From NCBI GenBank assembly GCA_030710605.1, contig CP092880.1:18413791-18477790 (forward strand): a stretch of 64,000 nt of DNA, written 5' to 3'. Under the pieces are notes generated by a model. It did no database searches and was not told the origin of the DNA. It worked only from the letters and a program-made list of their open reading frames with translations. The position numbers were made by a program, and so were the translations under genes. This DNA is from Cordylochernes scorpioides (lineage: Eukaryota > Arthropoda > Arachnida > Pseudoscorpiones > Chernetidae). Shown here one piece after another: positions 11,301 through 40,900 of the stretch (position 1 is the first letter of the stretch; each line of letters opens with the position of its first letter).

Positions 11301-14300
11301 CTACCTATGTTGAAAATAATATTGGGAGGCTCTGATTCATGAGGGGGCGAACACCTATTCAGATTTGACAGTTTAATATACACCTATCCCTCGATTTACA
11401 CGTTTTTCTCAGGAACGTATCTACCGTGTAAATCGGGGGATAGGTGTATTATCCAGCAAGAGAACACCTCTTCCTAAAGGACACTTTGGCTAGGCAAATA
11501 GGTGTCCTTTACAGGGAGGTTCTACTGTATAGTGGTTAATAATTAAAAATGAATGATTAGTTGATATTTTTATTCTGACAGATGGCGCAAGCCATCAGCA
11601 ACTTTTAGTTACACGATCAGGAGATGCCTTTTTTTCTTAATTTACCCACCTGATCCCAGTACAATTTTGTTCTATTTTTTCACATTGTTTGGTCTTCTCA
11701 CGCCCTTCCAGATTAAATACCTGTTTTATAATTTTTCAGGATGCCCTAAAGATTAACTTTTTTGGTCGTTGAGGTACAGCTTGCACCACGCTGATGAGGG
11801 CCAAAAGCCTGAAATGGGTACGTGATTAGCTTTTCTTGATTAATAATGAAAGGGGTTTATGGCTAATTCTGGAATAGTTGAAAATCAATGATTAGTTGAT
11901 ATAGATTCCAACACAGGGCATAAGCCATCAGTAACCTTTAGTTGCACAATCAAGAGATGCCTTCTTTTCTTAATATTGCTTTGATTAAGTAATACTCTTT
12001 GCTTCTAAACATCGCCTCTATTGTATAGTTATTATTTAATTTATTAATTAAACATTACTCACCAGATGAAATTATTTTATTACAATTATATATATTTAAA
12101 AGGTTCCTTGTGTGGTGTTGCAGGATATCCCCATTGGGGTTGTATTCAAGGCCCTGGGGGTGGAAAGTGACAAGGAGCTCTTCCAGATCATCACAGGGGG
12201 AGAAGTAGACAAGGTGGACTACATCCTCAGGACTGTGCAGGACTACAAGACCATCAAAGTCCAGACTAAGAATCAAGTAAGTCCATTCAACTTCAAACCA
12301 TAATGGATCACAACAATAGTCCTCTCTACTTGTGCTTTATTGACTTGAATGGAGATTACAACAATGGTCCTCTCAACTTGTGCTTTATTGGCTTGGAGAT
12401 TACAACAATGGTCCTTTCAGCTCAGGCTTTATTGGCTTCAATGGAGATTACAACAATGATCCTTTCAGCTCATACTTTATTGGCTTGAATGGAGATCACA
12501 ACAATGGTCCTCTCAGCTCATGCTTTATCATGCTATTCATCACCAAATTGGACAATAGTTCAGATCCCTAGGGATGTTGAATTAAAAATATGAACTGTGT
12601 AAATTTTTTAGATTGAAATTTAATTTTATTGGAACACCATCCAATTTTTTTCAAATTCAGATAGTCTGTGGGTACTTTTCAGCCAAACCATGTAATCTTC
12701 ATTGTAGAACGACGTTTGGCAATTTTACCACAAATGTTTCTTTTGTTCGAAAAATCATAATTTATTTTTTAAGGAGAAATAACGACTATTTCTAACCTTA
12801 GGGATAAAGTATGAAAGGATGAATTGTGAAGAGTAATGATGAACGGAAAAATAAAAGTGTCCAGGGATGGGAATCGAACCCACAGTGTTCCACTTACTGC
12901 GCAGATGCCATGTCCACTAGGCTACCCTGGACATACTTTTCCGTTTGTAAATATTATATAAAGTTAATTTATAATACAATATAATGCGGCTTATGATTGT
13001 AGAACAACGGTTGACAATTTTACCGCAAATATTTCTTTTGAACGAAAAATCATAATTTATTTTAAGGAGAAATAACGATTATTTCTATCCTTAGGGATGA
13101 AGTATGAAAGGATGAATTGTGAAGAGTATTGATGAACAGAAAAATAAATCCCCAAGAGGAATTGAGATGTTTTGAATCCAGCCCCCAGTCATGGAATGTG
13201 CAGGCCCTTGTCTACATGAGCCAGAAGTTCCGGCCCAAGGCTTTCAACATCGGCAACCTCAACAAGGTTGAGGAAGTGAGGGAGTACTTCTTCTCCACCT
13301 TCATGGCCCACATCCCTGTAAGTATCCAATTTATGTCTGCTATAGAATACAATTTTATATACTGGTTTGATTGATTACAATGTACTATTGCCTTGCAGTG
13401 GATATCAACAACTAAACTAGGTCTATAAAGTTGCTGTGTGTGTTTGTGAACAAATATATATATTTAAATATTTTACTAGTTGGAAGTGCCGTTTGTAAAA
13501 TAAAATTTGGCCCTCATCATCTACATTTTGGGTTTTGGACATTTTAGTCTAAATTAGACAAGATCTTGGATGTTGTGCTCATAAAGAATCTCAAGAACTC
13601 TTCTCGGTTCTCTGTACAGGGATCTTTTGTCCTTTACAATGCAATTTAGTAAATGTTGGGGAGTGGTCTCTTCGGTTTTGCACCTAGTGCACATGGGAAA
13701 GCACCTCCCATAAGTAAACTCTGTGATGTATATACAGTAGAACCTCCCTGTAAAGGACAAAACCTAATTGCAGAATCAAAGTGTCCTTTAGGGATAGGTA
13801 TCCTTATATTGGAGAACAACTAATATAGTAAAAATGGTCATTTTGAAACTGAAAACTGTCCTTTGTAGAGAGGTGTCCACTAGTGTGAGTGTCCTCTCAT
13901 GGAGGTTCTACTCTCTGTGCCTTATGGGTTGATTGTGATGAGAAAATAGAGAGAAGTAGATGTAATCTGGGTTTCAGGGTAAACAAAAAAACACCTGGAG
14001 ACTTCAGGCCAAGTGAATGATCTAGTCACGGGTTGAACAACTTACCACATGGGAGCTAGTCTGGGAGAAGGTTAGTGCTAAGGAACATGCAGATTCACAG
14101 AACTGCCTACCTTCCCCTCTGTAATTAAGAACACTCTAATCTATATATAAAATGAAAGGATTTAAAAGCACGAATGTTTCTTTTATACATAATACAAACT
14201 TCTATATTAGCCTTTTTTTTTTACTTACCCCTAGTACACGTGGTACAGGCCATTATAATCATGGTGGGTTGAAGTAGGCGACTGCTTTTACTGTAAGTGC

Positions 14301-16913: not shown

Positions 16914-19900
16914 CAGCAGAATAAAGATAAAGTTAAAAGTTACGAAGAAGGTGTATCTGAGGTAGAATAAAAAATAGAATATTGGGGCGGGAGGTCAATC
17001 TTTCTGTTGATGCTGGGGGTAGTATTAGAAACAAGGGCCTCAAGAACTAAGCGTTGATATTTGTTTGCTATATCGCTATAAATGGGGGTTGTGTTGTCGA
17101 GATTGAAGGAATGTCCGGACTCGGCGATATGTTGGTATATGAGCGATTTTTTGTCTTTCGAGCGGATGTTACGGGCGTGTTCACTGGCTCTGATGGCGAT
17201 TGTTCGGCCTGTTTCTCCAATGTAATGTAAATCGCAATCGTTACAGGGAATTTTGTAAATTTTTTGTCTTTCGAGCGGATGTTACGGGCGTGTTCACTCG
17301 CCCAATCAATGCACAATCGCCATCAGAGCCAGTGAACACGCCCGTAACATCCGCTCGAAAGACAAAAAATCGCTCATATACCAACATATCGCCGAGTCCG
17401 GACATTCCTTCAATCTCGACAACACAACCCCCATTTATAGCGATATAGCAAACAAATATCAACGCTTAGTTCTTGAGGCCCTTGTTTCTAATACTACCCC
17501 CAGCCTCAACAGAAAGATTGACCTCCCGCCCCAATATTCTGTTTTTTATTCTACCTCAGATACACCTTCTTCGTAACTTTTAACTTTATCTTTATTCTGC
17601 TGATTTTTTATTTTTTATTTTTATTTTTATTGTTGTTTTTTCTTGCTTTTGTCTTCGCCTCTCGTTGTCCGCCTTTCTCACTTCGTCTTAGGTATACAGA
17701 TTTTCAACGGGCTGATATTCTTTATACAAACTCAAAATAATATTTATACAGAGTAAAATTGAAAATATTTTGATATTAGCATGTGCTCTCGCGGGCGTGC
17801 ATCAGATTGTTTTTAATATTTTTAATACTTTTAAACTGTCGCTTATAAATGTTGCATCTCCTTCTTATTTATGTCAACACCTGATGAAGGACGGGTGACG
17901 TCCGAAAGCTTGTTTACAGCTCAATAAAGAAACTCACCACTTTCCTCTTGATCTTCCTTTTACACTTCAAACGTGGCTATATCTCTTCTACCATATACCG
18001 AGGTACGTTGGCTATCATGCTCCAAGGTTCTCAAACAATTTTGGGACTTGAAAGAAGAAATATGTCAGTTTTTAATAACCAAGAATCAAGACATCACTTT
18101 GTTTTCTGATCAAATATGGTTGCAAGATTTTTCCTTCATGGTTGACATAAAAAAACACTTGTCGGATTTAAATTTGAAACTGCAAGGAAAGGATCAGATC
18201 ATTACCAAAATGTGTGACCAAGTTAATGCATTCAAATGTAAGCTAGTTCTTTGGGAAAAGCAGTTGAAAAACAAAGATTTAATACACTTTCCGACATGCA
18301 ACATGTACAAATCAAGTTTAGGTGAAACTGCATCGTATCAAAAATATGTGGAAAAAATTTTAAGTCTTAGAAATGAATTTGAAACAAGGTTTTCTGATTT
18401 CAAATCTTTGGAAGGCAAGTTTACTTTGTTTTCTTCGATTTTCTCGATAAATATAGAATCAGTACCTAATCATATGCAAATGGAGGTAATAGATATCCAG
18501 TGCGATTCAGATTTAAAGGCAAAATTCATTGAAGTTGGCGTTTCTGAATTTTACAAATATTTGCCAGCCAGATTTGAAAACACTCGAAAATTAGCATATG
18601 AAATTATGTCCATGTTTGGAAGTACTTATCGGTGCGAGCAGTTATTTTCACTTATGAAAGGAAATAAGTCTCCAATCAGATCGAGAATTACTGACGTTCA
18701 CCTTGGGTCAGTTTTAAAATTAATCACTGCGAACAAGATTTCCCCCGAAGTAGGAAAGATGGTAGCAGAAAAGAGATGCCAAATATCAGGGAGAAAAATA
18801 TTAACTTTACTTTCTTTTTTCTTATTAGTATTTTTTAAAATAAACCTACATAAATGTTACTATAAAAATTTAATTACTTGTTTTCTTTTTTTGCGGCCCA
18901 CATAATCTTATTACTTTTTTATTTGGCCCGTGTTAGGATTTGAGTTTGACATGCTTGTATTAGGGTATCAAGCTTTGACAACCATCATGAAGGGTGAAGT
19001 AGAATGCCTTTGTCATTAAGACTGAGAGCACTACTCATTGGCAGGTCGACTTAACTCTAAAAGAAATGGCCGCCTCTGACATGGGGAACAGATACCATGT
19101 GCTGCAGCTCCTAACAAGGAGTACAAACGCTGCTCATCCTGTATCCCTGGAGCCCTTACAGGGTACTATCAGCCAGGCCAGCTGAACCCAGGTTTTTTAG
19201 TGAGCTTGTTACTGCTCCCCCACCTTTTTCATCCGGGCTTGGGACCGGCAAAGGCAGAGTTGGACTTACCTCGAATGGCAACCTGGGTTTGGCTCCCCAT
19301 CATACATCATGGAAAGTTGCCACATGATCTCCACATGATGAAATTGTGCTGTTGCTGCAGGTGCACGAGTTCAACCTCCACAACAAGGCAGTGTACCTGG
19401 CCATGATCATCCGCAGAATGATCCAGGCTCAGATAGACAAGAGGTACATAGACGACAGAGACTACTATGGAAATAAGAAACTGGAGGTTGCTGGGTCTCT
19501 TATGAGCATCCTCTTTGAGGATGTTTTTAAAAGACTCAACTTTGATGTAAGTATTTGGATTGAATTGCCTGCAATAGTCACTCAAGTGGCATTTATTCAC
19601 CCATTCTTTGGCCATAACTTGTGTCATTAAAGTGTGTATATTCTCTATATATCTTTATATGTGTAGAAAAGGCCTACCTATTATAATGAGGTTTAGTTAT
19701 ATATAGTTGATATATATACTCATGTACAAAACTTAAGGGAGTGGAAAGTCATCTGATTTTTTTTTTGAAGGAGACAGAGGCAATTTTCTTTACACTTTGT
19801 TATCTCGTGTGTCTTCAATAAAGGTCACTGTTAATCAAATGTCTTTCAGGGATATTGTCTGATTCTCAATATACATGCTAGAAGGTACAACTTCCTTAAG

Positions 19901-22900
19901 TTTTGTCCATGAGTGTATCTTTCAGAGTTATTGTCTGAATCCCTATATACATGCTAAAAGGTAAAACTTCCTTAAGTTTTGTCCATGAGTGTATCTTTCA
20001 GAGTTATTGTCTGAATCCCTATATACATGCTAAAAGGTAAAACTTCCTTAAGTTTTGTCCATGAGTGTATCTTTCAGAGTTATTGTCTGAATCCCTATAT
20101 ACATGCTAAAAGGTAAAACTTTCTTAAGTTTTGTCCATGAGTGTATCTTTCATTTTGCCCCTTCACAGTGTCCGTTTATAGGAATCCCTTTGCTATCAAT
20201 CTCTCCCCAATGTATCACAATGTGTCTGCCCCATTTGTTGTCACACAACAATAATTGGACCCCTCAAAGTGAAACATTTCTAATTTATCATCCACTTAGC
20301 AACCTCTATCAATAATGATGATATTTTGTCATGTTTAAATCTATATCTACATACATCTCTCTTGTGTTGTTGTTGTTTCTTATCCCTTTGTGTAAAGATT
20401 ACACGAATTCCATGAGTTCATGCTCCACAAGCTCATGGAATGAGATGTATGGGTGCAGCTTTTGTTGATCATGGCACTATATATATATATTTTTTTGCTT
20501 ATCCCTAGTACACGTGGTATAGGCCATGATAATCATAGTGGGTAGAAGAAGGCGAAAGCTTTTACTATAAGTGCACCACATGTCTACACAATTGAAAAGC
20601 AGTTTGACTTTGTACTTACAAATGTGCCAGGTGGTTACTTGCACTCACTGGTGGGCACTCGCTGGCACTATGATCCAGGCATACTTTGGTGAAAGTCTGA
20701 CTTTGCCTGTATTTTTAGGCTCCTAACATGGAAGAAGACATCTTTGCTGCCTACTCTCTTGTACTGCAATGATAATGGGTTGGCTCATCAGTAGTTTTGA
20801 CAAATTATCAGAAAGCTCTCTGTCCTATTGTATTAAACTGAATGTCTTATATTGCATTTCAAAAGGAATACCAGGGGTTGTTGTCTAAAGGATACTGGAC
20901 ATTAGCACCATACCTTTCTAGAAATCCATAGTTTTCTCAATCACTGTTACATTGTATTACCAATGCAGACTGTATAAGAAAGTTTGCCGCCTAATACAAT
21001 AAACACTCTCTAGAGACCACCTCTCCCTAAAAGACACTTTGGCTATGTAACTAGGTGGCTTTTACAGAGAGGTAGGTCTACTGTATAAGCTTTCTGTAAA
21101 AATGAGAAATCAAATGAAAGTCACTTTGAGCACACACAAGTTATATAAGTATTATGGGTTTTAACCAAAAGTCTTGGCAGAGGAAATAAATACCTACCTT
21201 ATCCCAGTACAATATCACATTTGTACTATTTTTTCATAATTCTGATTGTGCCTTATCATGTTGTCAGGTTGATTTAAAAATGGCAGACTTAGCTACTCTT
21301 CTTCTTCTTTCTTATCTCCACTCAATCATATTAAGGTATCAAGCTTGTAAAGCTTGAGACTTTTGATGGTGTCTGCCGGGGGACAATCATCATTATTGAG
21401 TGAAGTAAAATGCGTCTGCCTTTGTCATTAAGACTGGGACCACTACTCAGTGGCAGGCCGACTTAGCTCCAAAAGAAATAACCACCTCTGACATGAACAG
21501 ATGCCATGTGCAGCCGCTCCTAACATGGAGTACAAACACTGCTCATCCTGTATCCCTGGATCAGGAGCCCTTACAGGGTACTATCAGCCAGGCCAGCTGA
21601 GCCCAGGTTTTTTAGTGAGCTTGTTACTGCTCCCCCTCCTCCTTTTTCATCCGGGCTTGGGACCGGCAAAGGCGGAGTTAGACTTGAGCTGACTAAACTC
21701 CAGTATTGCTACCAGTCTAGACTTCATTGCTTCTTCACAATGTGTTCTCTTTGTGGTTGACTTATGTAATTATAGCTGTGAATACAAAACTCGAATCCAA
21801 CAGTTGATAGTTTAAACCAACTCGCACAGACTTCCTAGCATATTGATGACTTGCCGTTGTAGATATCTTGTTGTTTAGCACTGTAGGATGTGCTCCGAGG
21901 ATGTCTCACAAGCCAGATATTTTGTGCAGTTTTAAAGTGTGTTTGGTTTTGCCTTCAAAGAATATTTTCTTTTTGTGGCTTATGTGCCTTTTTATAAATA
22001 TATTATGATACATTAGCGCACCATCTGTTATGAAAATTCGAAACTATTATAGACACGTATGATTCTTTTAAAAATAAAATAATTTCTACTGCCTTTACTG
22101 CAATGGAAAAATTAATGGGAGGGCCTGGCTCATCAGTGGTGAACCCTCCCAGTGGTTTCGCCAGTTTAAAAGGTTCAACACTGATGAGCCAGGCCCTCCC
22201 ATTAATTTTTCCATTGTAGTAAGGGCAGTAGAAATTGTTTTATTTTTCAAAAGAATCATTCGCGCCTATAATAGTTTTGAATTTTGATAAATATATATCA
22301 TGTTGTTCTCTACACATCCTAGCATTGCTATTGGACTTGAATTCCTAACCATATTTATGTGGTATGTCCGGCTCACAGGGGGGATGTGCAGCTCAAGATG
22401 ATTGCAGACAAACTAGTGTCAAAGGTGGGCTGTGCTCCCTTCGACATTACCAAGCACATCAAGCAAGACACCATCTCCACAGCTCTCAACTCTGCCATCT
22501 CCACGGTTGGTACCTTGATAACACATTCATCTTCTTATTTCTTATCTCCACTCAATAATCATATTAGGGTATTAAGCTTGTAGAGCTTGTTGATGGTGTC
22601 TGCCGGGGAAGAGTAGAGCTCTTCAATGGATGGGCCAATACAGTCAATAATGTGGTTTGGGGTTGCAGGTTGACACTTAGTACATAGTGGGAAAACCTTG
22701 CAACCATTCTTGAAAGTCATTGTCTGTAGATGACCAGACTCAATTATGGAAATCAAAGAATGCTATTACAGTGAAAATTTTACTTTCATTTTTGCAGGGT
22801 GGTCTCTCGCTACTGTATTATCAGCCCTCAGAAACTGTTCTGTCCTATATTCTATGGAGTATTTCGAACTCCTAACAAGAGAAACCAAACATTTGTATTA

Positions 22901-25900
22901 CACACACAATGATGCTGCTGGGTGCAGGGCACTTGGAAGATCACAAGATTCCGCATGAGCAGGGAAGGCATCACGCAGGTTCTCTCCCGGCTCTCCTACA
23001 TTTCGGCTCTGGGTATGATGACCAGGATCCAGAGTCAGTTTGCCAAGATGCGCAAGATCGCAGGTCCTAGGTCACTCCATTCCTCCCAGTGGGGAATTAT
23101 CTGTCCTTCTGACACTCCTGAAGGAGAGGTGGGTGGAACTCAGGTTTCATGTATAACAGCAAGGCTTTCACTATCAGTGTTCAATGACATTCATCATTAT
23201 GGCATGTTCTTTAATGTGGACTCGCTGGGAAAGGAAAAATTAGCCCTATTTTTTTATTAGTAGTTCAATATATTGTTAAATAAAAATCATGGTATACTAA
23301 AGTTATTTGAAGTATTTTAGCCACATGATCTCAGTGAGTCCCAATTTTGATGCTAGTTGACACTACAGTTTAATAATTTGAATTTTAGTCTTGTTTCATG
23401 TTTTTACTTCCCCTACAAAACAAATTGTGCTGTTGTTTTTGTGGGCTGGGGAAGAACGCGGCCTTGATGTTCTATATCACAGTGGAGCACTAGTATGACT
23501 GATTGTGGTGTGGGCAGAGCTGTGGGCTGGTGAAGAACCTGGCCTTGATGTCCCACTGTAGTATGACTGACTGTGGTGTGGGCAGAGCTGTGGGCTGGTG
23601 AAGAACCTGGCCTTGATGTCCCACTGTAGTATGACTGACTGTGGTGTGGACAGAGCTGTAGGCTGGTGAAGAACCTGGCCTTGATGTCCCACTGTAGTAT
23701 GACTGACTGTGGTGTGGACAGAGCTGTGGGCTGGTGAAGAACCTGGCCTTGATGTCCCACTGTAGTATGACTGACTGTGGTGTGGACAGAGCTGTGGGCT
23801 GGTGAAGAACCTGGCCTTGACTGTAGTATGACTGACTGTGGTGTGGACAGAGCTGTGGACTGGTGAAGAACCCGGCCTTGATGTCCCACTGTAGTATGAC
23901 TGACTGTGGTGTGGACAGAGCTGTGGGCTGGTGAAGAACCCTGCCTTGATGTCCCACTGTAGTATGACTGACTGTGGTGTGGACAGAGCTGTGGGCTGGT
24001 GAAGAACCCTGCCTTGATGTCCCACTGTAGTATGACTGACTGTGGTGTGGACAGAGCTGTGGGCTGGTGAAGAACCCGGCCTTGATGTCCCACTGTAGTA
24101 TGACTGACTGTGGTGTGGACAGAGCTGTGGGCTGGTGAAGAACCCTGCCTTGATGTCCCACTGTAGTATGACTGACTGTGGTGTGGACAGAGCTGTGGGC
24201 TGGTGAAGAACCCGGCCTTGATGTCCCACTGTAGTATGACTGACTGTGGTGTGGGCAGAGCTGTGGGCTGGTGAAGAACCTGGCCTTGATGTCCCACTGT
24301 AGTATGACTGACTGTGGTGTGGACAGAGCTGTGGGCTGGTGAAGAACCCGGCCTTGATGTCCCACTGTAGTATGACTGACTGTGGTGTGGACAGAGCTGT
24401 GGGCTGGTGAAGAACCCTGCCTTGATGTCCCACTGTAGTATGACTGACTGTGGTGTGGGCAGAGCTGTGGGCTGGTGAAGAACCTGGCCTTGATGTCCCA
24501 CTGTAGTATGACTGACTGTGGTGTGGACAGAGCTGTGGGCTGGTGAAGAACCTGGCCTTGATGTCCCACTGTAGTATGACTGACTGTGGTGTGGACAGAG
24601 CTGTGGGCTGGTGAAGAACCCGGCCTTGATGTCCCACTGTAGTATGACTGACTGTGGTGTGGACAGAGCTGTGGGCTGGTGAAGAACCCGGCCTTGATGT
24701 CCCACTGTAGTATGACTGACTGTGGTGTGGGCAGAGCTGTGGGCTGGTGAAGAACCTGGCCTTGATGTCCCACTGTAGTATGACTGACTGTGGTGTGGAC
24801 AGAGCTGTGGGCTGGTGAAGAACCTGGCCTTGACTGTAGTATGACTGACTGTGGTGTGGACAGAGCTGTGGACTGGTGAAGAACCCGGCCTTGATATCCC
24901 ACTGTAGTATGACTGACTGTGGTGTGGGCAGAGCTGTGGGCTGGTGAAGAACCCGGCCTTGATATCCCACTGTAGTATGACTGACTGTGGTGTGGGCAGA
25001 ACTGTGGGCTGGTGAAGAACCTGGCCTTGACTGTAGTATGACTGACTGTGGTGTGGACAGAGCTGTGGACTGGTGAAGAACCCGGCCTTGATATTCCACT
25101 GTAGTATGACTGACTGTGGTGTGGGCAGAGCTGTTTGCTGGTGAAGAACCCGGCCTTGATGTCCCACTGTAGTATGACTGACTGTGGTGTGGACAGAGCT
25201 GTGGACTGGTGAAGAACCCGGCCTTGATATTCCACTGTAGTATGACTGACTGTGGTGTGGGCAGAGCTGTGGGCTGGTGAAGAACCCGGCCTTGATGTCC
25301 CACTGTAGTATGACTGACTGTGGTGTGGACAGAGCTGTGGGCTGGTGAAGAACCCGGCCTTGATGTCCCACTGTAGTATGACTGACTGTGGTGTGGACAG
25401 AGCTGTGGGCTGGTGAAGAACCTGGCCTTGATGTCCCACTGTAGTATGACTGACTGTGGTGTGGGCAGAGCTGTGGGCTGGTGAAGAACCCGGCCTTGAT
25501 GTCCCACTGTAGTATGACTGACTGTGGTGTGGGCAGAGCTGTGGGCTGGTGAAGAACCTGGCCTTGATGTCCCACTGTAGTATGACTGACTGTGGTGTGG
25601 ACAGAGCTGTGGGCTGGTGAAGAACCCGGCCTTGATGTCCCACTGTAGTATGACTGACTGTGGTGTGGACAGAGCTGTGGGCTGGTGAAGAACCCGGCCT
25701 TGATGTCCCACTGTAGTATGACTGACTGTGGTGTGGGCAGAGCTGTGGGCTGGTGAAGAACCTGGCCTTGATGTCCCACTGTAGTATGACTGACTGTGGT
25801 GTGGACAGAGCTGTGGGCTGGTGAAGAACCCGGCCTTGATGTCCCACTGTAGTATGACTGACTGTGGTGTGGGCAGAGCTGTGGGCTGGTGAAGAACCTG

Positions 25901-28900
25901 GCCTTGATGTCCCACTGTAGTATGACTGACTGTGGTGTGGACAGAGCTGTGGGCTGGTGAAGAACCCGGCCTTGATGTCCCACTGTAGTATGACTGACTG
26001 TGGTGTGGGCAGAGCTGTGGGCTGGTGAAGAACCTGGCCTTGATGTCCCACTGTAGTATGACTGACTGTGGTGTGGACAGAGCTGTGGGCTGGTGAAGAA
26101 CCTGGCCTTGATGTCCCACTGTAGTATGACTGACTGTGGTGTGGACAGAGCTGTGGGCTGGTGAAGAACCCGGCCTTGATGTCCCACTGTAGTATGACTG
26201 ACTGTGGTGTGGACAGAGCTGTGGGCTGGTGAAGAACCTGGCCTTGATGTCCCACTGTAGTATGACTGACTGTGGTGTGGACAGAGCTGTGGGCTGGTGA
26301 AGAACCTGGCCTTGATGTCCCACTGTAGTATGACTGACTGTGGTGTGGACAGAGCTGTGGGCTGATGAAGAACCCGGCCTTGATGTCCCACTGTAGTATG
26401 ACTGACTGTGGTGTGGACAGAGCTGTGGGCTGGTGAAGAACCCTGCCTTGATGTCCCACTGTAGTATGACTGACTGTGGTGTGGACAGAGCTGTGGGCTG
26501 GTGAAGAACCCGGCCTTGATGTCCCACTGTAGTATGACTGACTGTGGTGTGGACAGAGCTGTGGGCTGGTGAAGAACCTGGCCTTGACTGTAGTATGACT
26601 GACTGTGGTGTGGACAGAGCTGTGGACTGGTAAAGAACCCGGCCTTGATATCCCACTGTAGTATGACTGACTGTGGTGTGGGCAGAGCTGTGGGCTGGTG
26701 AAGAACCCGGCCTTGATATCCCACTGTAGTATGACTGACTGTGGTGTGGGCAGAGCTGTGGACTGGTGAAGAACCCGGCCTTGATATCCCACTGTAGTAT
26801 GACTGACTGTGGTGTGGGCAGAGCTGTGGGCTGGTGAAGAACCCGGCCTTGATGTCCCACTGTAGTATGACTGACTGTGGTGTGGACAGAGTTGTGGGCT
26901 GGTGAAGAACCTGGCCTTGATGTCCCACTGTAGTATGACTGACTGTGGTGTGGACAGAGCTGTGGGCTGGTGAAGAACCTGGCCTTGATGTCCCACTGTA
27001 GTATGACTGACTGTGGTGTGGGCAGAGCTGTGGGCTGGTGAAGAACCCGGCCTTGATGTCCCACTGTAGTATGACTGACTGTGGTGTGGGCAGAGCTGTG
27101 GGCTGGTGAAGAACCTGGCCTTGATGTCCCACTGTAGTATGACTGACTGTGGTGTGGGCAGAGCTGTGGGCTGGTGAAGAACCTGGCCTTGATGTCCCAC
27201 TGTAGTATGACTGACTGTGGTGTGGGCAGAGCTGTGGGCTGGTGAAGAACCTGGCCTTGATGTCCCACTGTAGTATGACTGACTGTGGTGTGGGCAGAGC
27301 TGTGGGCTGGTGAAGAACCTGGCCTTGATGTCCCATATCACAGTGGACGTGGAGGAAGAGAAGTACATCCAGCTGGCTCTCAACCTTGGGGTCTGGGGTC
27401 TCGGCATGTTGTCTCCCCTCGACCTCTGGAAGCATCCGATGGTCTTTGTAAATGGTTGGTCCACCTAACTCTCATATACACTACCTATATTCTCTAATCT
27501 ACCCAGCATCTCCATACAAATTGTAACATAGAAAATTAGGGAAGACAAATTTCAGGATGACACGGCAAGTTATTTAAGGCTAAACACAAAATCAACATTC
27601 TTCTTCTTCTTTCTTATCACCACTCAATCACACTAAGGTATCAAGCATGTAAAGCTTGAGATTTTTGATGATGTCTGCCGGGGAAGAGTAGAGCTTATCA
27701 ATGGATGAGTCAATACAGTCAATAATGTGTTTTGGGGTTGCAGGCTGAGAATTGCACTTAGTACATAGTAGGAAAACCTTGCAACCATTCTGGAAAGTCA
27801 TTGTCCTTAGATGACCAGACTTAAGTCTGGAAATCAAAGACTGTTGTTCTCTTGGGAGGACAGAACCGGTGCTTGTCCCTCCTGCTCTGTACCAGTCATT
27901 GATAAGCTACAATATATGCAATGAGGGAAGAGTTTCCATAGCACAATATAAAGAATATAAAAAATTAATAATCTGTACATATAATAAATACTTTGCTGCA
28001 ATATAATTGCCTTTTAAACTATTATTTCTCATTATATGGCTAATACTTATAATTTTTTAAAAAAAGAATAGCATGTAATATGGAATGAGAAGCTATTGCA
28101 GCTTCTCTTGGATTCTATCCCAGGGCTCCAAGGATGTATACAGTCTGGGATCTTCTTCCGTAGAGGCTGCATGGTATTGCAATCTGAGCACTCAACTCAG
28201 TTGGAATATAGTGTTGTTGTTGTTTCTTATCCCCTTGTGTAAAGATTACACAAATTCCATAAGTTCATGCTCCTCGAGCTGTTTTTATGATAAGCAGCGA
28301 CCTCTCCCAAAGGTCCTGTTTAGTGCATAGGGATATAGTGATACAGTTAAACCTGTCTATAGCACCCCCTCTTGGGACTCAACAAAATAGGGTGCTATAG
28401 AAAAGGGGGTGCTATTGACAGGTCACTTTTAATGTAAATTGTATCATACTATGTATTTAAAATTGGGCGCTATAGAGAGGGAGGCGCTATTTAGAGGGGG
28501 CGCTATAGACAGGTTTAACTGTATATGAATATAGAATATCTAGTTTTAGAGTAACAATTATTCTATACACCTTAATGTGAGTTCTTGGTTACTGATGGTG
28601 TGTGTTGCCAGGCCAGGTAATCGGCATCCACAAAGATTACAAGTATCTCATTGACACCTTCCGCTACATACGACGCAAGGGAAGGCTCAGTCCATTTGCA
28701 TCAATCTACTATAACAGCCTGCACCGCTCTGTGTACATCGCGTGTGACGGAGGCAGGCTGTGTAGACCCTTGATCATTGTGGAGAAAGGTCGACCTCTTC
28801 TGACTCAGGAACACATCAGAAAGATCCAGCGCAAGTTCTATGATTTCTCCGACCTTGTCAGACTGGGCTATGTGGAATACCTGGACGTCAATGAACTGAA

Positions 28901-31900
28901 CGACTGTCTGGTGGCTCTGGAGGAGAAGGACCTCACGTAAGTAGGACCACGTTACCTCAGTGTCGGTGGAAGGATGGTCTAAGCCGTTGGTTTTCGACCG
29001 CTACGACCCGGGTACATTTCCCGCATTGGACACTTTTTCTGAATAATAATAATATTAAAAAATTATACAATGGCCCCTGATTCTTGCAAAAGTCCAATCC
29101 CACCAACGAGTTCAAGTAATCAAATGGGGCTCTGGCACATTTGTATGTCCAAAGTCGAACTGCTTTTCACATGTGTAGACATGTGGTGCACTTACAATAA
29201 AAGTAGTCACCTACCATGATTATCATGGCCTTTACCACGTGTACTCGGGATAAGCAAAAAAAAAAAGTTACCTTATGATCAATTAAACACATGGTAATAA
29301 CACAAAATCCAAATAAATAGTGTATGACGTTTCAGTGTTGTTACCATCTTCAGACAAAAGTTCTGAATGAGAAAATATACCACAGCATGTTTTATCTTGT
29401 TTACACACTTGATAACATTAACTATTTAAAATATGCTGTGGTATAATTTCTCATTCAGTACTTTTGTCTGAAGATGGTAACAACACTGAAACGTCACACA
29501 CTATTTATTTATATGGATTTGGTCTTATATTACCTTATTTTTATAATCTCTCTCTCTGTCCTACACTGAAGTTAGATCCTGTCACTGTACCAGTGTAAGG
29601 AACCATAGAGATAGTTTCCTCCATTCTTGGTACCAAATAGAAAACCCCTAAAAAACAGACCCTCCAACTAAACAGAAGAAAATCAACACAGTTGGTCAGA
29701 TGGAAATCTGGTCACCTGCGCCCTTTAGTCTATAAAGAGGGAGCCAAAAGCTTCCCCATGTGCACTAGGTGCGAAAACGAAGAGGCCACTCCCCAACATA
29801 TACTAAATTGTATTGGAAAGGACAAAGGATCCCTGTACAGAGAACCAAGAAGAGTTCTTGAACTTCTTTATGAGCATGACCTCCAAGATCTTGTCTAATT
29901 TAGACTAATAGAAGGATAAGTAAAAAAAACTGTACCAGTGTGATGGGATGTCCAGGATGAACACCACCCACATGGAGATTGACAAGTTCCCCCTGCTGGG
30001 AGTATGTGCCGGACTCATTCCTTACCCCCACCATAACCAGAGTCCACGTAACACCTACCAGTGTGCCATGGGGAAGCAAGCTATGGGTAACTGGTTTTTC
30101 AAATTGGCAGCATTTAAATCCATATTTGATGATTGTCCTTTTCTCAAGGTTCAATTTCTGTTTTCTCACCTCTTTGACTTCTTTTACCCCGAATCAGTCT
30201 TTATTTCAAAAAGGTTCACAGTTTGGATTACAGGTTAAATCCCCATAAACAATTGAGTGAATGATAAAATAGTACAAAAGAGTGAAACTGTACTGGAATC
30301 TGATTGATAAATTTTAAGAGAAAGGCATTCCCTGATGTTGACTTTTGAAAATGTACAAGTGGCTACACCCAGGTAAACTAGGTGAGAGGCAGAGCTTCTT
30401 ACCCTTAACATCAGTTGTAAAAAGCATTTGACATGGTCACACTATACATGGTGACAATAACCTCCCTAAGTACACTCATGGACGAAACTTAAGGAAGTTG
30501 TACCTTTTATCATGTATATCGGGATTAGGACAATAACTCTGAAAGATATTTGATTCACAGTGACCTTTATTGAAGATACACCAGATAACCAAGTGTGAAC
30601 AACCTCTGTCTCCTTCAAAACTTAAGGATGTTGTACCTTTTAACATGTATATTGGGATTCAGATAATAACTCAAAGATATTACAGTTACCTTTATTGAAG
30701 ACACACGGGATAAATAAGTGTGAACAAAATTGTCTCTGTCTCCTTCAAAACTTAATGAAGTTGTACCTTTTACCATGTATATCAGGATTCAGACAATAAC
30801 TCTGAATGATATTTGATTCACAGTGACTTTTATTGGAAACACACGAGATAACCAAGTGTGAACAAAATTGCCTCCGTCTCCTTCAAAACTTAAGGATGTT
30901 GTACCTTTTAACATGTATATTGGGATTCAGATAATAACTCAAAGATATTACAGTTACCTTTATTGAAGACACACAAGATGAATAAGTGTGAACAAAATTG
31001 CTTCTCTTTAAAAAAAAAAAAAGATGGCCAGCAATATCAAAGACTTTCCATTTTCTCAAGTTTTGTTGATGATTGTATTATTGAATCTGAAGATTTAGAA
31101 GTAAAACAAGAAGTGAGGAATACTACTCTCTCAGGGCAAGTTGTGTTAACCAGCCACTAGGTACAAGCTGGCTGACCTGTGCAGGTACCATTGGCCTCAA
31201 CCAGGAACAGAGGATTGACACCCTGAGGTACAACTTGGTGAACCCCGAGCGGCCCCTAGCCAGCACCAAGGTAAGAACACCACTTAGCCAGCCTGCACTC
31301 TGCCTGCCATCAATGCCATTGTATTGCAGACCATACAGATGTGCAACTTTGAGTCCCTACCTGCTGGCATCAATGCTACTATTGCCGTCATGAGCTACAG
31401 TGGCTTTGATATTGAAGATGCCATTGTCCTTAACAAAGCTGCTGTTGAGCGAGGTGAGTGAAACCACATGTTGTTTGTTGTTGTTTCTTATTCCCTTATG
31501 TAAAGATTACACAAATTCCATGAGTTCATGCTCCTCGAGCTGTTTTATGACAAGCAGCGGCATCTCCCAAAGGTTCTGTTTAGTGCATCTAATGCAAGCC
31601 AAAATGTGTTCTGGAGCTGCAGGTGCGAAGCTACATTTTGGGTAAGTGGGGTAGATTTTGTTATTATTTTCTATCTTCAATGGCTTGAGATGGCCTGTTC
31701 TAAATCTTGTTAGTGTTGTTTGATGCTGTCTATTTCTGAGGTTCAGAGCTCCTCCTGGGTCCACTTCACTGTACCAGCTGTGCTTAGGTGGGATCCTCCA
31801 GTTCTTGTTTATTTTTGTTTTTGCTACTGTCTCTATTTCTTTAAAAGTAAGTTTACTTTTCTGGGGCAAGGGTTCGCTTGTGCCTTTTTTTCGCTAATGC

Positions 31901-34900
31901 TTCATTGCCTTCAATGCCAATCTGGGATGCTACATGCTAATGCATGTGGGACCACATTCAAATAGAATATTCTCTTTGAGAATCTCTAATGAATTCTCCT
32001 TGATTTAAAAAATAATTTATCAGCGGGTTGAATATAGGAATAAATATTTGTAAAAACATTTGCTGGTTGAGAGTTTCTTGTTCTTCTTCTTTCTTTTCTC
32101 CACTCATATTTGGGTATCAAGTTGTAATCCTTGATGGTGTCTGTTTGACAACCATCATGACTGGGTGAAGTAGAATGCATCTGCCTTTGTCATTAAGACT
32201 GAGAACAGGCAGGCCGACTTAGCTCCAAAAGAAATGACCGCCTCTGACATGAGGAAAAGACGCCATGTGCTGCGGCTCCTAACATGGAGTACAAATGGTG
32301 CCCAACCTGTATTCCTGGATCAGGAGCCCTTACAGGGTACTATCAGCCGGGCCAGCTGAGCCCAGGCTTTTTACCGAACTTGTTACTGCTCCCCCTCCTC
32401 CTTTTTCATCTGGGCTTGGGACTGGCAAAGGCGGAGTTTCTTGTTGAAAGAATATAGTTATATATCACACAACTGATATTCATTGTTTTTCTGACAACCA
32501 CCTTCCTCCCTCAGAAAAATGTGATCATGATTTCTAGATTTTACAAATTAACTTAAGAGTCCCAATCCTTCACTACAGAGAAGCACCGAAGTAGTCAAAT
32601 ATTTTGAATTCTTATCTAGTAGAACTACCTCTCTGTGAAGGACACCTAATTGCAGAGCCAAAGTGTTTTTTAGGGAGTTTCTAATTAGTAAAAATGGTAA
32701 AATTGGCAATTGAAACTGTCCTTTGTTGAGAGGTTTCCTCTAGCGGGAGTATCCTCTCGTGGAGGTTTCACTGTATACTGAGAGAGTTTCTAAATTTCAT
32801 TGATTCATAAACTGCTAATGGCTGAAATTTCCTTTTTTATCTTCCTTCCCTAATGAAGTTAATAATAATACAGCAAATGAAAACAATACGACGCAAATAT
32901 TTGATTTTCACATCAATCAAAGTTCTACTGTTCTTACAGTGATGAAAAATATATTGGGAGGGCTAAGCTCATCAGTGGTGAAACCTCCCAGTGGTTTCGC
33001 CAATTTTTAATCTACCAGACCGCTTCTTTAGCACTCTATTACTGTATTGGATCTTTCTGCTTATATATGCTACAATGAAGGGTGGAATCTCAGAAATGGT
33101 ATTTAAGTAAACTATAGATATAAGCTTTTAGGGCAGTAGAATTACTTATAAATATTTGCATCCGAGCAATACTCTTTTGCAAAGTGTGAAGTGATTGATG
33201 AAGTGTGATTCAAAGTGTTAAGAAACATCCACGTCTTAATGTTTTCATTTGCTTTATTTAAGTGGCGTGTTATTGCTTTATAATAGATAAGGCACAATTT
33301 GGATTATAGATTATAAGCACAAGGTAATAAGACCAAATCCAAATATATAAATAGTGTATGACGTTTCGGTAACAGCGTTGTTACCATCTTCAGACAAAAG
33401 TACTGAATGAGAAAATTTTACCACAGCATGTTTTTAAATAGTTACTGTTATCAAGTGTGTAAACAAGATAACAGATAAGAAGAAGATATTTATCTGATAA
33501 ACACATGATGAATAATATTTGGTCTTATTACCTTGTGCTTGCTTTATAATAATAATGACATCTATAGAGAAATGGCCTCTGAGATTTACCAACTTTAATG
33601 ACTAAGCTTTTAAAGTAAGAACCTGCCACATACTAGAATAGACCACACTACAACTGTTATAACTATCTGATAAGAATAGTTATATAAGGGGGTCGGTGGA
33701 AGGATGGTCTAAACCATTGGTTTTCGACCACAACGACCTGGGTTCGATTCCCGCACTGGGCATTTTTTTCTGATTAAAAAAAAAATGCTCCAATGATCCC
33801 CGTTTCTTACAAAAGTCCAACCCCACAAGCGAGTGCATGTAACCAAACAGGGCTATGACACATTTGTAAGTGCAAAGTCAAACTGCTTTTCACATGTGTA
33901 GACATGTGGTGCACTTACAGTAAAAGCTGTTGCCTACATCTATCCACAATGATTATCATGGCCTGTACCATGTGTACTAGAGTTAAACAAAAAAAAAAAA
34001 CATACTTAGAATAAAATGCAGATTACCTTTGTGTGTGCAGGCTTTGCGCGGTGCGTGGTGTATCGCTGTGAGAAGGAAATCATCAACAAGTACGCCAACA
34101 ATGTGATGGATGAAGTGAAGAGGCCGGTGGATGACGGCACCAATACCTTCAACAAGACTTTTGGCCATCTTGATGGGAGCGGCATCATATCTCCCGGTAA
34201 GTCAGCCATTTTGTCCCCGTCATTTACACAAGATTGTGTGAGATATACACAATGAGAAACCTCTCATGCGTAACCGACCTCTTGGAAAAATGACCGCTCT
34301 TATAAAATCAGCAATGAACAGTCCTGAATCAACCTAACATCAAATATAGGTCCGGAGGTATTCCTGCATATTTGGGCAGTCTCTCATGTAAGTTGTAATG
34401 AAAGTCCTCAGGTAACCAAATTCAGATCCCATCTCATGGAATGAGGTGTAGGTGTGCAGCTTTCATTGATCATGGCACCATGATCCAGGCAAGCTTTGAT
34501 GAAAGTCTGACTTTGTCTGTAATTTGAGGCCATTCCTAACATGTAAGCAGAAGCCTTTGCTGCATACTCTAACATGAGTACAAATGCAGCTCTTCCGTAT
34601 CCCTGGAGAGAAACCCTTGCTGAGGTCCATCAACTGGGTCAGTCGAACTCAGGATTTTTAAAGAGATCTTTCTCCTCTTTTGTTGGTTCGCGACTGTTTA
34701 TTCGTCAAAGTTATTCTGCTTATTTCACAGCTAGTCTTCATATCGGAAGGTCGTTCCTCTATCTGCCACCTGGGTATGCGCCCTGTAACAGTAATCTCTT
34801 TTTTTTTTTTTTGCTTATCCCAAGTACACGTGGTACAGGCCATGATAATCATGGTGGGTAGAAGTAGGCAACTGCTTTTACTGTAAGTACACCACATGTC

Positions 34901-37900
34901 TACAGATGTGAAAAGCAGTTAGACTTTGCACTTACAAATGTGCCAGAGCCCCATTTGGTTACTTGCACTCGCTGGTGGGGTTGGATTTTTTCAAGAAACG
35001 GGGACCATTGTAGCATTTTTTTTTTTTTTTTTTAATAAGAAAAAAGTGTCCAATGTGGGAATCAAACCCGGGTCGTAACGGTCGAAAACCAATGGTTTAG
35101 ACCATCCTTCCACAAACCCCCTATTTGAGATCTTTTGTAGGATTGGGTCATGTTTGGGAGAATCATCCTCAAGGAATGTGAAAGAACAAGATCTTCATAT
35201 TGATAACTAGCATTCCCAATAAAAGGAGCATGTTTCATGGTGTTGTGCAGGACAGAAGGTGAGTGAGCGGCAGATCATGGTGAACAAGTACATCCCGGTG
35301 GAGACCCGAGTGGAAGGAGGGGTCACAGGCATTGGTCTGCTTAACACCCAGTACACCTATGAACATCGACCTCTAGTGTGAGTCTCTTCTTAGTTGGCCA
35401 TGTTTGCATAATTGTTAAAATATGTAAATAATGATTTGTATTAAAAGAAGATGCAAGAAAATAAGACCTAATCCAAATAATTTAATAGTATATTAATATA
35501 ATTGGATTAGGTTTTATTTTCTTGTATCTATAATCTAAATTATGCTTTATCATTGTACTAGTAGAAAAGCCCGTCCAAGGACGGGATCGGCTAGAGCAGG
35601 TGGATTGAGAGGTTTGAATCGGTTCAAGTTAGACTTTTCCTTTGGAACAGCATTTATGAAAAGTTTTACTGTATGTCGTTTGTTCCAATTCGAAATACTT
35701 TGCACTACATTTTGGGCAAACTTGATCAAGTTGGCCACAAAAGTGCAGGGGAATTTGATCTTCCTCGAAACATGTCCCTGTTGGCAAAGGTAGATTATCT
35801 CCCTGTCGAATTCTTTGCATCCTCATCCTACTGTTTTCCCTTTGAAGGGCTCTTTGATTTTCGCTCATATTCATTCGGTATTGCCGTTGTTGTTCATTAT
35901 GCCGTTCTCTTACGGGTGAATTTAAACGTCTTTGTCGCTGCTGTTCAATACGACGTTGCTTTGCTTCGATGGCCTCAACAATAGAAAGGGCTCTTTTAGG
36001 ATACATTGTTTATAAAAATAAAATAATCAAGCTAAATTAAAAAATAAAATTATTTAAAAAATATTATTCCTCAAATATTCACCGAATAAATTGCCGACGT
36101 CACGTCACACGCCACGTGACACAGAATGGACCAATCCTATTCGGCTTCTACGAACAGACGCATTATTATCCCGTGCTCAGTCCCATCTCATCACGTAGTC
36201 AGTCCCATTTCATCCCGTGCTCAGTCCCATCTCATCCCATGCTCAGTCCCATCTCATCCCGTGGTCATTCCCATCTCATCCCGCTGTCAGTCCCATCTCA
36301 TCCCGTGCTCAGTCCCATCTCATCCCGTGGTCAGTCCCATCTCATCCCGTGTTCAGTCCCATCTCATCCCGTGATCATTCCCATCTCATCCCGTGATCAT
36401 TCCCATCTCATCCCGTGCTCAGTCCCATCTCATCCCGTGGTCAGTCCCATCTCATCCCGTGCTCAGTCCCATCTCATCCCGTGGTCAGTTTCATCTCATC
36501 CCGTGGTCAGTTTCATCTCATCCCGCTGTCAGTCCCATCTCATCCCGTGGTCAGTCCCATCTCATCACGCGGTCAGTCCCATCTCATCCCGTGGGCAGTC
36601 CCATCTCATCCCGTGCTCAGTCCTATCTCATCCCGTGCTCAGTCCCATCTCATCCCGTGCTCAGTCCCATCTCATCCCGTGCTCAGTCCCATCTCATCCC
36701 GTGATCATTCCCATCTCATCCCGTGATCATTCCCATCTCATCCCGTGCTCAGTCCCATCTCATCCCGTGCTCAGTCTCATCCCATCCCGTGCTCAGTCCC
36801 ATCTCATCCCGTGCTCAGTCCCAACTCATCCCGTGGTCAGTCCCATCTCATCCCGTGTTCAGTCCCATCTCATCCCGTGATCATTCCCATCTCATCCCGT
36901 GCTCAGTCCCATCTCATCCCGTGGTCAGTTTCATCTCATCCCGTGCTCAGTCCCATCTCATCCCGTGGTCAGTTTCATCTCATCCCGTGGTCAGTTTCAT
37001 CTCATCCCGCTGTCAGTCCCATCTCATCCCGTGGTCAGTCCCATCTCATCCCGCTGTCAGTCCCATCTCATCCCGTGGGCAGTCCCATCTCATCCCGTGC
37101 TCAGTCCCATCTCATTCCGTGCTCAGTCCCATCTCATCCCGTGCTCAGTCCCATCTCATCCCGTGATCATTCCCATCTCATCCCGTGATCATTCCCATCT
37201 CATCCCGTGCTCAGTCCCATCTCATCCCGTGCTCAGTCCCATCCCATCCCGTGCCTAGTCCCATCTCATCCCGTGCTCAGTCCCATCTCATCCCGTGGTC
37301 AGTCCCATCTCATCCCGCTGTCAGTCCCATCTCATCCCGTGCTCAGTCCCATCTCATCCCGTGCTCAGTCCCATCTCATCCCGTGTTCAGTCCCATCTCA
37401 TCCCGTGATCATTCCCATCTCATCCCGTGATCATTCCCATCTCATCCCGTGCTCAGTCCCATCTCATCCCGTGCTCAGTCCCATCTCATCCCGTGATCAT
37501 TCCCATCTCATCCCATGATCATTCCCATCTCATCCCGTGCTCAGTCCCATCTCATCCCGTGGTCAGTTTCATCTCATCCCGTGCTCAGTCCCATCTCATC
37601 CCGTGGTCAGTTTCATCTCATCCCGTGGTCAGTTTCATCTCATCCCGTGGTCAGTCCCATCTCATCCCTTGCTCAGTCCCATCTCATCCCGTGCACAGTC
37701 CCATCTCATCCCGTGGTCAGTCCCATCTCATCCCGCTGTCAGTCCCATCTCATCCCGTGCTCAGTCCCATCTCATCCCGCTGTCAGTCCCATCTCATCCC
37801 GTGCTCAGTCCCATCTCATCCCGTGCTCAGTACCATCTCATCCCGTGTTCAGTCCCATCTCATCCCGTGATCATTCCCATCTCATCCCGTGATCATTCCC

Positions 37901-40900
37901 ATCTCATCCCGTGCTCAGTCCCATCTCATCCCGTGGTCAGTTTCATCTCATCCCGTGCTCAGTCCCATCTCATCCCGTGGTCAGTTTCATCTCATCCCGT
38001 GGTCAGTTTCATCTCATCCCGTGGTCAGTCCCATCTCATCCCTTGCTCAGTCCCATCTCATCCCGTGCTCAGTCCCATCTCATCCCGTGGTCAGTCCCAT
38101 CTCATCCCGCTGTCAGTCCCATCTCATCCCGTGCTCAGTCCCATCTCATCCCGCTGTCAGTCCCATCTCATCCCGTGCTCAGTCCCATCTCATCCCGTGC
38201 TCAGTCCCATCTCATCCCGTGTTCAGTCCCATCTCATCCTGTGATCATTCCCATCTCATCCCGTGCTCAGTCCCATCTCATCCCGTGCTCAGTCCCATCC
38301 CATCCCGTGCTCAGCCCCATCCCATCCTGAGCTCAGTCCCATCTCATCCCGCTTTCAGTCCCATCTCATCCCGTGCTCAGTCCCATCTCATCCCGTGCTC
38401 AGTCCCATCTCAACCCGTGCTCAGTCCCATCTCATCCCGTGCTCAGTCCCATCTCATCCCGTGCTCAGTCCCATCTCATCCCGTGTTCAGTCCCATCTCA
38501 TCCCGTGATCATTCCCATCTCATCCCGTGCTCAGTCCCATCTCATCCCGTGGTCAGTCCCATCTCATCCCGTGCTCAGTCCCATCCCATCCCGTGCTCAG
38601 CCCCAACTCATCCCGTGCTCAGTCCCATCTCATCCCGCTGTCAGTCCCATCTCATCCCGTGCTCAGTCCCATCTCATCCCGTGCTCAGTCCCATCTCATC
38701 CCGTGCTCAGTCCCATCTCATCCCTTGCTCAGTCCCATCTCATCCCGTGCTCAGTCCCATCTCATCTCGTGGTCAGTCCCATCTCATCCCGTGTTCAGTC
38801 CCATCTCATCCCGTGATCATTCCCATCTCATCCCGTGATCATTCCCATCTCATCCCGTGATCATTCCCATCTCATCCCGTGCTTAGTCCCATCTCATCCC
38901 GTGCTCAGTCCCATCTCATCCCGTGCTCAGTCAGTATCTCATCCCGCTGTCAGTCCCATCTCAACCCGTGCTCAGTCCCATCTCATCCCGTGCTCAGTCC
39001 CATCTCATCCCGTGCTCAGTCCCATCTCATCCCGTGTTCAGTCCCATCTCATCCCGTGATCATTCCCATCTCATCCCGTGCTCAGTCCCATCTCATCCCG
39101 TGGTCAGTCCCATCTCATCCCGTGCTCAGTCCCATCCCATCCCGTGCTCAGCCCCATCTCATCCCGTGCTCAGTCCCATCTCATCCCGCTGTCAGTCCCA
39201 TCTCATCCCGTGCTCAGTCCCATCTCATCCCGTGCTCAGTCCCATCTCATCCCGTGCTCAGTCCCATCTCATCCCTTGCTCAGTCCCATCTCATCCCGTG
39301 CTCAGTCCCATTTCATCCCGTGGTCAGTCCCATCTCATCCCGTGTTCAGTCCCATCTCATCCCGTGATCATTCCCATCTCATCCCGTGATCGTTCCCATC
39401 TCATCCCGTGATCATTCCCATCTCATCCCGTGCTTAGTCCCATCTCATCCCGTGCTCAGTCCCATCTCATCCCGTGCTCAGTCCCATCTCATCCCGTGCT
39501 CAGTCAGTATCTCATCCCGCTGTCAGTCCCATCTCAACCCGTGCTCAGTCCCATCTCATCCCTTGCTCAGTCCCATCTCATCCCGTGCTCAGTCCCATCT
39601 CATCCCGTGCTCAGTCCCATCTCATCCCGCTGTCAGTCCCATCTCATCCCGTGCTCAGTCCCATCTCATCCCGTGTACAGTCCCATCTCATCCCGTGATC
39701 ATTCCCATCTCATCCCGTGATCATTCCCATCTCATCCCGTGCTCAGTCCCATCTCATCCCGTGCTCAGTCCCATCTCATCCCGTGCTCAGTCCCATCCCA
39801 TCCCGTGCTCAGTCCCATCTCATCCCGTGCTCAGTCCCATCTCATCCCGTGCTCAGTCCCATCTCATCCCGTGCTCAGTCCCATCTCATCCCGTGGTCAG
39901 TCCCATCTCATCCCGTGATCATTCCCATCTCATCCCGTGATCATTCCCATCTCATCCCGTGCTCAGTCCCATCTCATCCCGTGGTCAGTTTCATCTCATT
40001 CCGCTGTCAGTCCCATCTCATCCCGTGCTCAGTCCCATCTCATCCCGTGTTCAGTCCCATCTCATCCCGTGATCATTCCCATCTCATCCCGTGATCATTC
40101 CCATCTCATCCCGTGCTCAGTTCCATCTCATCCCGTGCTCAGTCCCATCTCATCCCGTGGTCAGTTTCATCTCATCCCGTGCTCAGTCCCATCTCATCCC
40201 GTGCTCAGTCCCATCTCATCCCGTGCTCAGTCCCATCTCATCCCGTGCTCAGTCCCATCTCATCCCGTGTTCAGTCCCATCTCATCCCGTGCTCAGTCCC
40301 ATCTCATCCCGTGCTCAGTCCCATCCCATCCCGTGTTCAGTCCCATCTCATCCCGTGCTCAGTCCCATCTCATCCCGTGCTCAGTCCCATCTCATCCCGT
40401 GCTCAGTCCCATCTCATCCCGTGTTCAGTCCCATCTCATCCCGTGCTCATTCCCATCTCATCCCGTGCTCAGTCCCATCTCATCCCGTGCTCAGTCCCAT
40501 CTCATCCCGTGCTCAGTCCCATCTCATCCCGTGTTCAGTCCCATCTCATCCCGTGATCATTCCCATCTCATCCCGTGATCATTCCCATCTCATCCCGTGC
40601 TCAGTCCCATCTCATCCCGTGCTCAGTCCCATCTCATCCCGTGCTCAGTCCCATCTCAACCCGTGATCAGTCCCATCTCATCCCGTGGTCAGTACCATTT
40701 CAGCCGGCCACGTCACTTAAGTGGGGGGGGGGGCGGCCAAGCCAATCAGGTTTGAACACGTCACACAGAATGGACCAATCCTATTCGGCTTCAACGAACA
40801 GACGCTTTATTATATGTGATAAAGGTATTTTCATTAATTTGTTATAGTGATACTCCTGTTGAAGGACTGACAAGTCTGAAAGCTTGAAAATAAAAGATTT

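Follow-up and report, generated by a model that had tools for sequence, protein, structure and literature searches.

A boundary-straddling minisatellite repeats a splice acceptor of POLR3B in the pseudoscorpion Cordylochernes scorpioides

We analysed a stretch of 64,000 nucleotides (nt) from Cordylochernes scorpioides (GenBank assembly GCA_030710605.1, contig CP092880.1, positions 18,413,791 to 18,477,790 of the forward strand), hereafter the window, in which a minisatellite repeats one intron-exon boundary of POLR3B, the gene that encodes RPC2. The window carries part of this gene on the + strand, with 17 exons recognised between about 2101 and 60433. Exons were called by tblastn with human RPC2 together with inspection of exon ends, and identity to the human protein was 36-88% over single exon matches. 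Earlier exons lie outside the window, so the numbering counts those recognised inside it, and exon 8, which bears the repeated boundary, is the eighth of these. Nine consecutive exons (19361 to 34196), each with AG before it and GT after it, join into a frame of 1480 nt with zero stops. Within this run, exon 7 joined to exon 8 reads in phase 0, both exons together match residues 422-537 of human RPC2 (PDB chain 7a6h_B, E=9e-46), and the translation from exon 7 to exon 9 (two exons and part of the next) holds Rpb2 domains 3, 4 and 5. On homology and reading frame, exon 8 is predicted to start at 27298. From the coordinates, the intron between exons 7 and 8 measures 4169 nt, most of which is the array, and the following intron measures 1157 nt. 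The features of this interval are listed below in window positions, with "decoy" denoting each copy of the acceptor upstream of the one that serves exon 8, and lengths of repeat units in base pairs (bp).

22928..23128, + strand: exon 7, upstream of the array; human RPC2 match, 201 nt, no stop, ending ...PSDTPEGE in phase 0
23129..23134, + strand: donor GTGGGT of the array-bearing intron; matrix score 10.1, itself one of the 12 donors in the matrix (5.2-11.5)
23440..23486, + strand: D0, a decayed first copy of the exon start; 42/47 identical to exon 8, no acceptor AG at its 5' edge
23487..23517, + strand: first intron half, before the first decoy acceptor; slightly diverged, with ACTGATTG for ACTGACTG and two bases fewer (by alignment)
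23518..27297, + strand: 56 decoy units (52 of 68 bp, 4 of 61 bp); the decoys' first exon-like bases span 23518 to 27230
27268..27297, + strand: intron end serving the true exon, CTGTAGTATGACTGACTGTGGTGTGGGCAG; its score ties with 19 decoys
27298..27454, + strand: true exon 8, 157 nt; its first 38 nt (27298-27335) equal the exon half of the unit
27455..27460, + strand: donor GTTGGT of exon 8; score 6.5, the nearest good donor 3' of any array acceptor
28612..28936, + strand: next exon after exon 8; reading frame kept after exon 8

Tandem Repeats Finder returned a single array at 23491-27335, with a period of 68, 57.0 copies, 96% matches and a score of 6962. A scan for the tail GTGTGG[A/G]CAG identified 57 acceptors, whose 56 spacings comprise 52 of 68 bp and four of 61 bp; because a missing unit would give a doubled spacing, we conclude that no unit was missed. 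In the full unit, an exon start of 38 bp (AGCTGTGGG...GTCCCA) is followed by an intron end of 30 bp (CTGTAGTATGACTGACTGTGGTGTGGGCAG), which features a branch-point-like CTGAC that ends 14 bases 5' of the exon, a G/T-rich tail and a CAG acceptor. Each of the 61-bp units carries a 7-bp deletion in its exon half, which leaves an exon part of 31 bp. The 56 decoy units represent 17 distinct sequence types, and the longest exact repeated run of types is four units. At 27336 the last copy of the array continues into the remainder of exon 8. An initial annotation of this stretch had described a 68-bp unit in about 56 copies, composed of the intron end, the AG and some 39 bases of exon; this anatomy holds, with the correction that the exon part is 38 bp (27298-27335). 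The annotation had also identified the final unit as the real exon, and the passage of the last copy into exon 8, in the frame set by human RPC2, supports that identification at the level of sequence.

The usual acceptor tract is C/T-rich. At the 15 other acceptors of POLR3B, positions -20 to -4 contain 38% T, 33% G, 15% C and 15% A, and G/T-rich, C-poor tails are found at acceptors including 10960, 12124, 27298, 28612, 34041 and 35251. The G/T-rich tail of the array is normal for this gene, because the 15 other acceptors have a like composition. The first codon of exon 8 (27298-27300) is AGC, which encodes Ser, and the corresponding residue is Ala in all three PDB alignments shown (human and yeast RPC2 and one RNA polymerase II chain). 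The first codon of the decoys encodes Ser in 55 of 56 cases (54 AGC, one AGT) and Asn in one. The change from Ala to Ser at the start of exon 8 may either have spread through the array or have predated it.

The 5' edge of the array bears on how it arose. According to the initial annotation, a diverged first unit carries deeper exon sequence, and this was borne out by D0, which at 42/47 identity reaches ...CACAGTGGA, includes 12 exon bases that the units lack, and is followed by GCAC and then by the intron half of the first decoy. The 5' flank of D0 showed no resemblance to the intron half of the unit (879 of 5000 mononucleotide shuffles scored as well), and the idea that this flank is itself a decayed intron half was rejected as unsupported on the same count. 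The annotation had further proposed that the founding duplication took in more of the exon; the longer copy agrees with this proposal, but a simple duplication is unsettled by a D0 flank that is unlike the intron half. Either D0 has had its intron half replaced, or it marks the original acceptor and the intron tail seen today arose later. A sister species with a single-copy tail that resembles TAGTATGACTGACTGTGGTGTGGGCAG would favour duplication of the present boundary, and a tail like the D0 flank would mark D0 as the original acceptor. The array could have begun as a short tandem duplication around the exon start, of about 80 bp with some 50 bp of exon. The ancestral unit of ~80 bp would then have lost 13 bp before amplification, perhaps, on inspection, through a deletion bordered by CA on either side, and slippage or unequal exchange would have amplified the shortened unit into 56 decoys and the true copy. 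We also observed an exact 14-base word, AAATTGTGCTGTTG, at 19341-19354 (the acceptor tail of 19361) and at 23422-23435 (just 5' of D0); 35 of 100 shuffled windows give at least two matches to this word at up to two mismatches.

We evaluated what use of a decoy would mean for the reading frame. With exon 7 ending in phase 0, splicing to 56 of the 57 acceptors brings an in-frame stop ahead of the exon 8 donor, and only the last acceptor leaves the frame open, as anticipated by the initial annotation, which had an earlier acceptor meet TGA in another frame. The stop is reached after 27 codons for 51 acceptors, after 26 for one and after 13 for the four 61-bp units. For the penultimate acceptor, 144 nt separate the start of the stop from the end of exon 8, a distance at which the 50-nt rule would predict nonsense-mediated decay.

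The same annotation had the spliceosome passing over dozens of near-identical acceptors, and the matrix scores make the point sharper still, as the true acceptor is equalled or outscored by 21 of the 56 decoys. Of the 57 array sites, 35 score 4.3, 20 score 8.8 (the true acceptor among them), one scores 9.3 and one, decoy 23518, scores 10.2, such that the true acceptor is tied by 19 decoys and exceeded by two. A score of at least 8.8 is attained by 0.7% of the 1423 AGs upstream of 23400, a set that includes six true acceptors of the gene. For RNA folding, a stem between intron end and exon was predicted at the true site (z -2.58, equalled by 2 of 200 shuffles). Folding was also run in four longer contexts with 3, 6, 10 and 6 scored acceptors, and in these the acceptor A was slightly more open at the true site (unpaired 0.13-0.15 vs 0.03-0.12 at decoys). 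RNA fold was nevertheless rejected as a discriminator, as the modelled differences are small and two of the three lie in the wrong direction for the preferred site. Distance to a donor behaves differently from score and fold. The exon defined from the true acceptor is 157 nt long, and those from the five nearest decoys would be 225, 293, 361, 429 and 497 nt, with lengths of up to 3937 nt across the array. None of the 444 GTs within 23440-27297 is of donor grade, the best scoring 3.8 vs 5.2-11.5 for the 12 donors of the gene.

Because distance to a good donor separates the true acceptor from the decoys, and score and fold do not, we consider exon definition the likely chooser of the true acceptor and expect slight leakage at the final few decoys. 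A preference for the sites closest across the exon when the flanking introns are large is described in PMC9225289. By this mechanism, the last acceptor would be used because no other has so short a path across the exon to a good donor, and not for a better signal or fold. Without the 3780 nt of decoy units, the intron of 4169 nt would measure about 390 nt; array growth would have taken it past 4 kb, and in doing so would have favoured exon definition. Transcripts from leaky splicing, expected chiefly at the final two or three decoys, would run into one of the stops described above and be removed by nonsense-mediated decay. Our overall interpretation, which we hold to be probable, is that the array is a "mirage", meaning a boundary-straddling minisatellite whose decoys are passively tolerated within the intron while exon definition selects the last acceptor.

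Several observations weigh against this interpretation. The acceptor matrix was built from 15 other acceptors and the donor matrix from 12 donors, all of one gene. In the four folding contexts, the tail was unpaired at 0.14-0.23 for the true site vs 0.25-0.30 for the decoys, and the first A of the branch region at 0.53-0.86 vs 0.75-1.00, both of which would, if anything, disfavour the true site. The first decoy, 23518, has the top acceptor score (10.2) and is 389 nt away from the donor; transcription reaches it about 3.8 kb ahead of the true acceptor, so that it could be favoured co-transcriptionally. Lastly, the halves of the unit vary unevenly (see below), which a purely passive array leaves unexplained.

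An alternative is that the array sets gene dose, with decoys used at a fixed rate and the resulting transcripts destroyed, such that copy number tunes the output of RNA polymerase III. In its favour, a stop follows from every one of the 56 decoys, and by matrix score 19 of them tie the true acceptor and two exceed it. However, stops are unsurprising in a unit of 68 bp, which is not a multiple of 3 and contains five plus-strand stop words across all frames, and published mirages are reported with normal splicing (PMC3087553, PMC3902484, as far as these accounts extend). We regard such a dose-setting array as unlikely. Tuning of the gene by copy number, a possibility raised in the initial annotation, finds no support in this analysis and on precedent would likewise be unlikely.

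Two further alternatives draw on the uneven variation between the halves of the unit. Variable sites among the 52 full-length units number 10 of 38 in the exon half vs 1 of 30 in the intron half (Fisher p=0.017), and the addition of position 2 of a 61-bp unit brings the counts to 11 vs 1 (p=0.0085). With D0 and the first intron half included, substituted sites number 14 of 38 in the exon half vs 2 of 30 in the intron half (p=0.004, columns counted by eye); the first intron half itself shows one substitution and two bases fewer. All six single-unit changes fall in the exon half (p=0.03, with a two-base change counted once). We treat this asymmetry as a lead only, because it is post hoc and the sites are dependent through shared ancestry of the units. 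One explanation would be that selection preserves the intron halves, whose branch points and acceptors would form a reservoir that recruits the spliceosome, while the exon halves drift. Beyond having been spotted post hoc, the asymmetry carries modest p values that ignore base-specific mutation rates, a single change can spread by amplification among dependent sites, the two bases missing from the first intron half were uncounted as a site, and there is no known reason for the upkeep of individual decoys, all of which speak against a reservoir, and we find it very unlikely. We are just as doubtful of a related proposal, in which constant intron halves and drifting exon halves would belong to a kept device whose decoy number sets the waste of pre-mRNA, and which would act as a heritable, fast-changing dial, set by array length, on an essential RNA polymerase III subunit.

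It is also possible, though very improbable, that the copy number is in part a product of assembly, through collapse or false expansion of an array that is in reality larger or smaller. The units are 96% alike, and an aberrant draft assembly is reported for the BflGb6 mirage of amphioxus (PMC3087553, in the portion that concerns this gene). Against this, the array contains 17 unit types without long repeated blocks (four units at most), and its flanks are single-copy, as would be natural for spanning reads. A decaying or non-functional POLR3B copy, for which one could cite the Ser in place of the Ala of three aligned PDB chains, is barely credible beside nine exons that are stop-free over 1480 nt with AG and GT next to each.

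The locus offers a natural competition assay, with 57 acceptors in cis, 20 of them equal in local score, one donor 5' and one good donor 3'. It can reveal whether an acceptor is chosen for its closeness across the exon or across the intron, and to what extent splicing leaks. It also indicates that a boundary minisatellite can reach nearly 4 kb in a conserved gene with the coding frame unbroken. As the first 38 coding bases of the exon are part of the amplified array, conversion from decoys could alter the protein.

Among 34 boundary windows (17 exons, both ends), extra copies that span the boundary were found only at the exon 8 acceptor; six outer edges were approximate in this test, of which the donors 12277 and 43360 were redone precisely with no extra copy, and four stay approximate. 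Three overlapping minus-strand open reading frames of 1286-1352 amino acids run through the array, and a coding gene there was rejected, as the unit is stop-free in every minus-strand frame and so are 471 of 2000 dinucleotide shuffles. No known RNA was found in the array with Rfam at gathering thresholds, and the sole match in the window was a tRNA at 12859-12931. A second minisatellite, at 36168-40702, comprises 206 copies of 22 bp in the POLR3B intron between the exons near 35251 and 43219. It showed no extra copies that span the flanking boundary windows (the donor end near 35330 is approximate), so it does not look like a mirage. On inspection, the interval 43360-45020, AAAGG/GCAAGT ... 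TATTGTAG/AGTGG, is a probable GC-AG intron; its removal would bring KGVVGRIVP back into frame. Inside a POLR3B intron, 4904-9430 holds an open frame of 1508 amino acids from a BEL/Pao-type element, with the domains Peptidase_A17 and DUF1759. At 49646-56675 lies a Gypsy-type element with RVT, RNase H and DUF7041 domains, which probably inserted recently because its 452-bp flanking repeats are 100% identical. Nested within it is an insert at 53781-55488 with terminal direct repeats of 289 bp that are 99.3% identical; its minus strand encodes a KH domain (E=2.1e-21) between stretches that appear retrotransposon-like by eye.

Splice sites within tandem repeats have been described in other systems. 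In the UBC polyubiquitin gene, as here, a splice site is present in every unit of a tandem array, but the UBC repeats are coding and AGGT serves as both donor and acceptor (PMC10809524, as far as it describes them). The POLR3B array is without AGGT (0 occurrences in 23491-27335), which rules out dual-specific sites of the UBC type and recursive splice sites. In human IFI6 (6-16), too, a splice site of the host gene recurs in a minisatellite (Turri 1995, via PMC4526556). There, however, the repeated sites are donors and not acceptors, and two downstream units are used as donors to give three mRNA species, according to the account in PMC4526556; a good donor per unit of the IFI6 type is absent from 23440-27297, where the best of the 444 GTs remains at 3.8 vs 5.2-11.5. 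In human segmental duplications, boundary minisatellites shift the limits of introns, with 27 intron modifications described in PMC2812944. The repeats given there average 30 bp x 4 in recent paralogues, whereas the POLR3B array has 56 decoys in a conserved housekeeping gene.

The closest likeness is to the mirages of amphioxus (lancelets), described for Adh3, troponin C, the globins BflGb6 and BflGb9, and PGBD5, in which tandem repeats span an intron-exon boundary as they do here. In BflGb6, the 3' end of an intron is repeated together with the 5' portion of the exon that follows it, and splice signals are present in many of the repeats, though not in all (PMC3087553, PMC3902484); two haplotypes contain six and three units of 150-160 bp (PMC3087553). 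The Adh3 units are 10-72 bp and show somatic instability, and the Adh3 data together with globin reverse-transcription PCR suggested that regular splicing is undisturbed by mirages (PMC3087553). PGBD5 has two or seven units of 60 bp and three or six of 108 bp in two assemblies, and troponin C provides another case (PMC3902484). The array that we describe has the same features, namely a tandem array (57 copies, period 68, 96%), a unit that spans the boundary and an authentic exon that is one of the copies. It differs in that it lies in another gene and comprises 56 decoys of 61-68 bp, far above the copy numbers given in these accounts for amphioxus. Boundary arrays are thus already known from amphioxus, and the POLR3B array, filed with them by its sequence architecture, is a very large new case.

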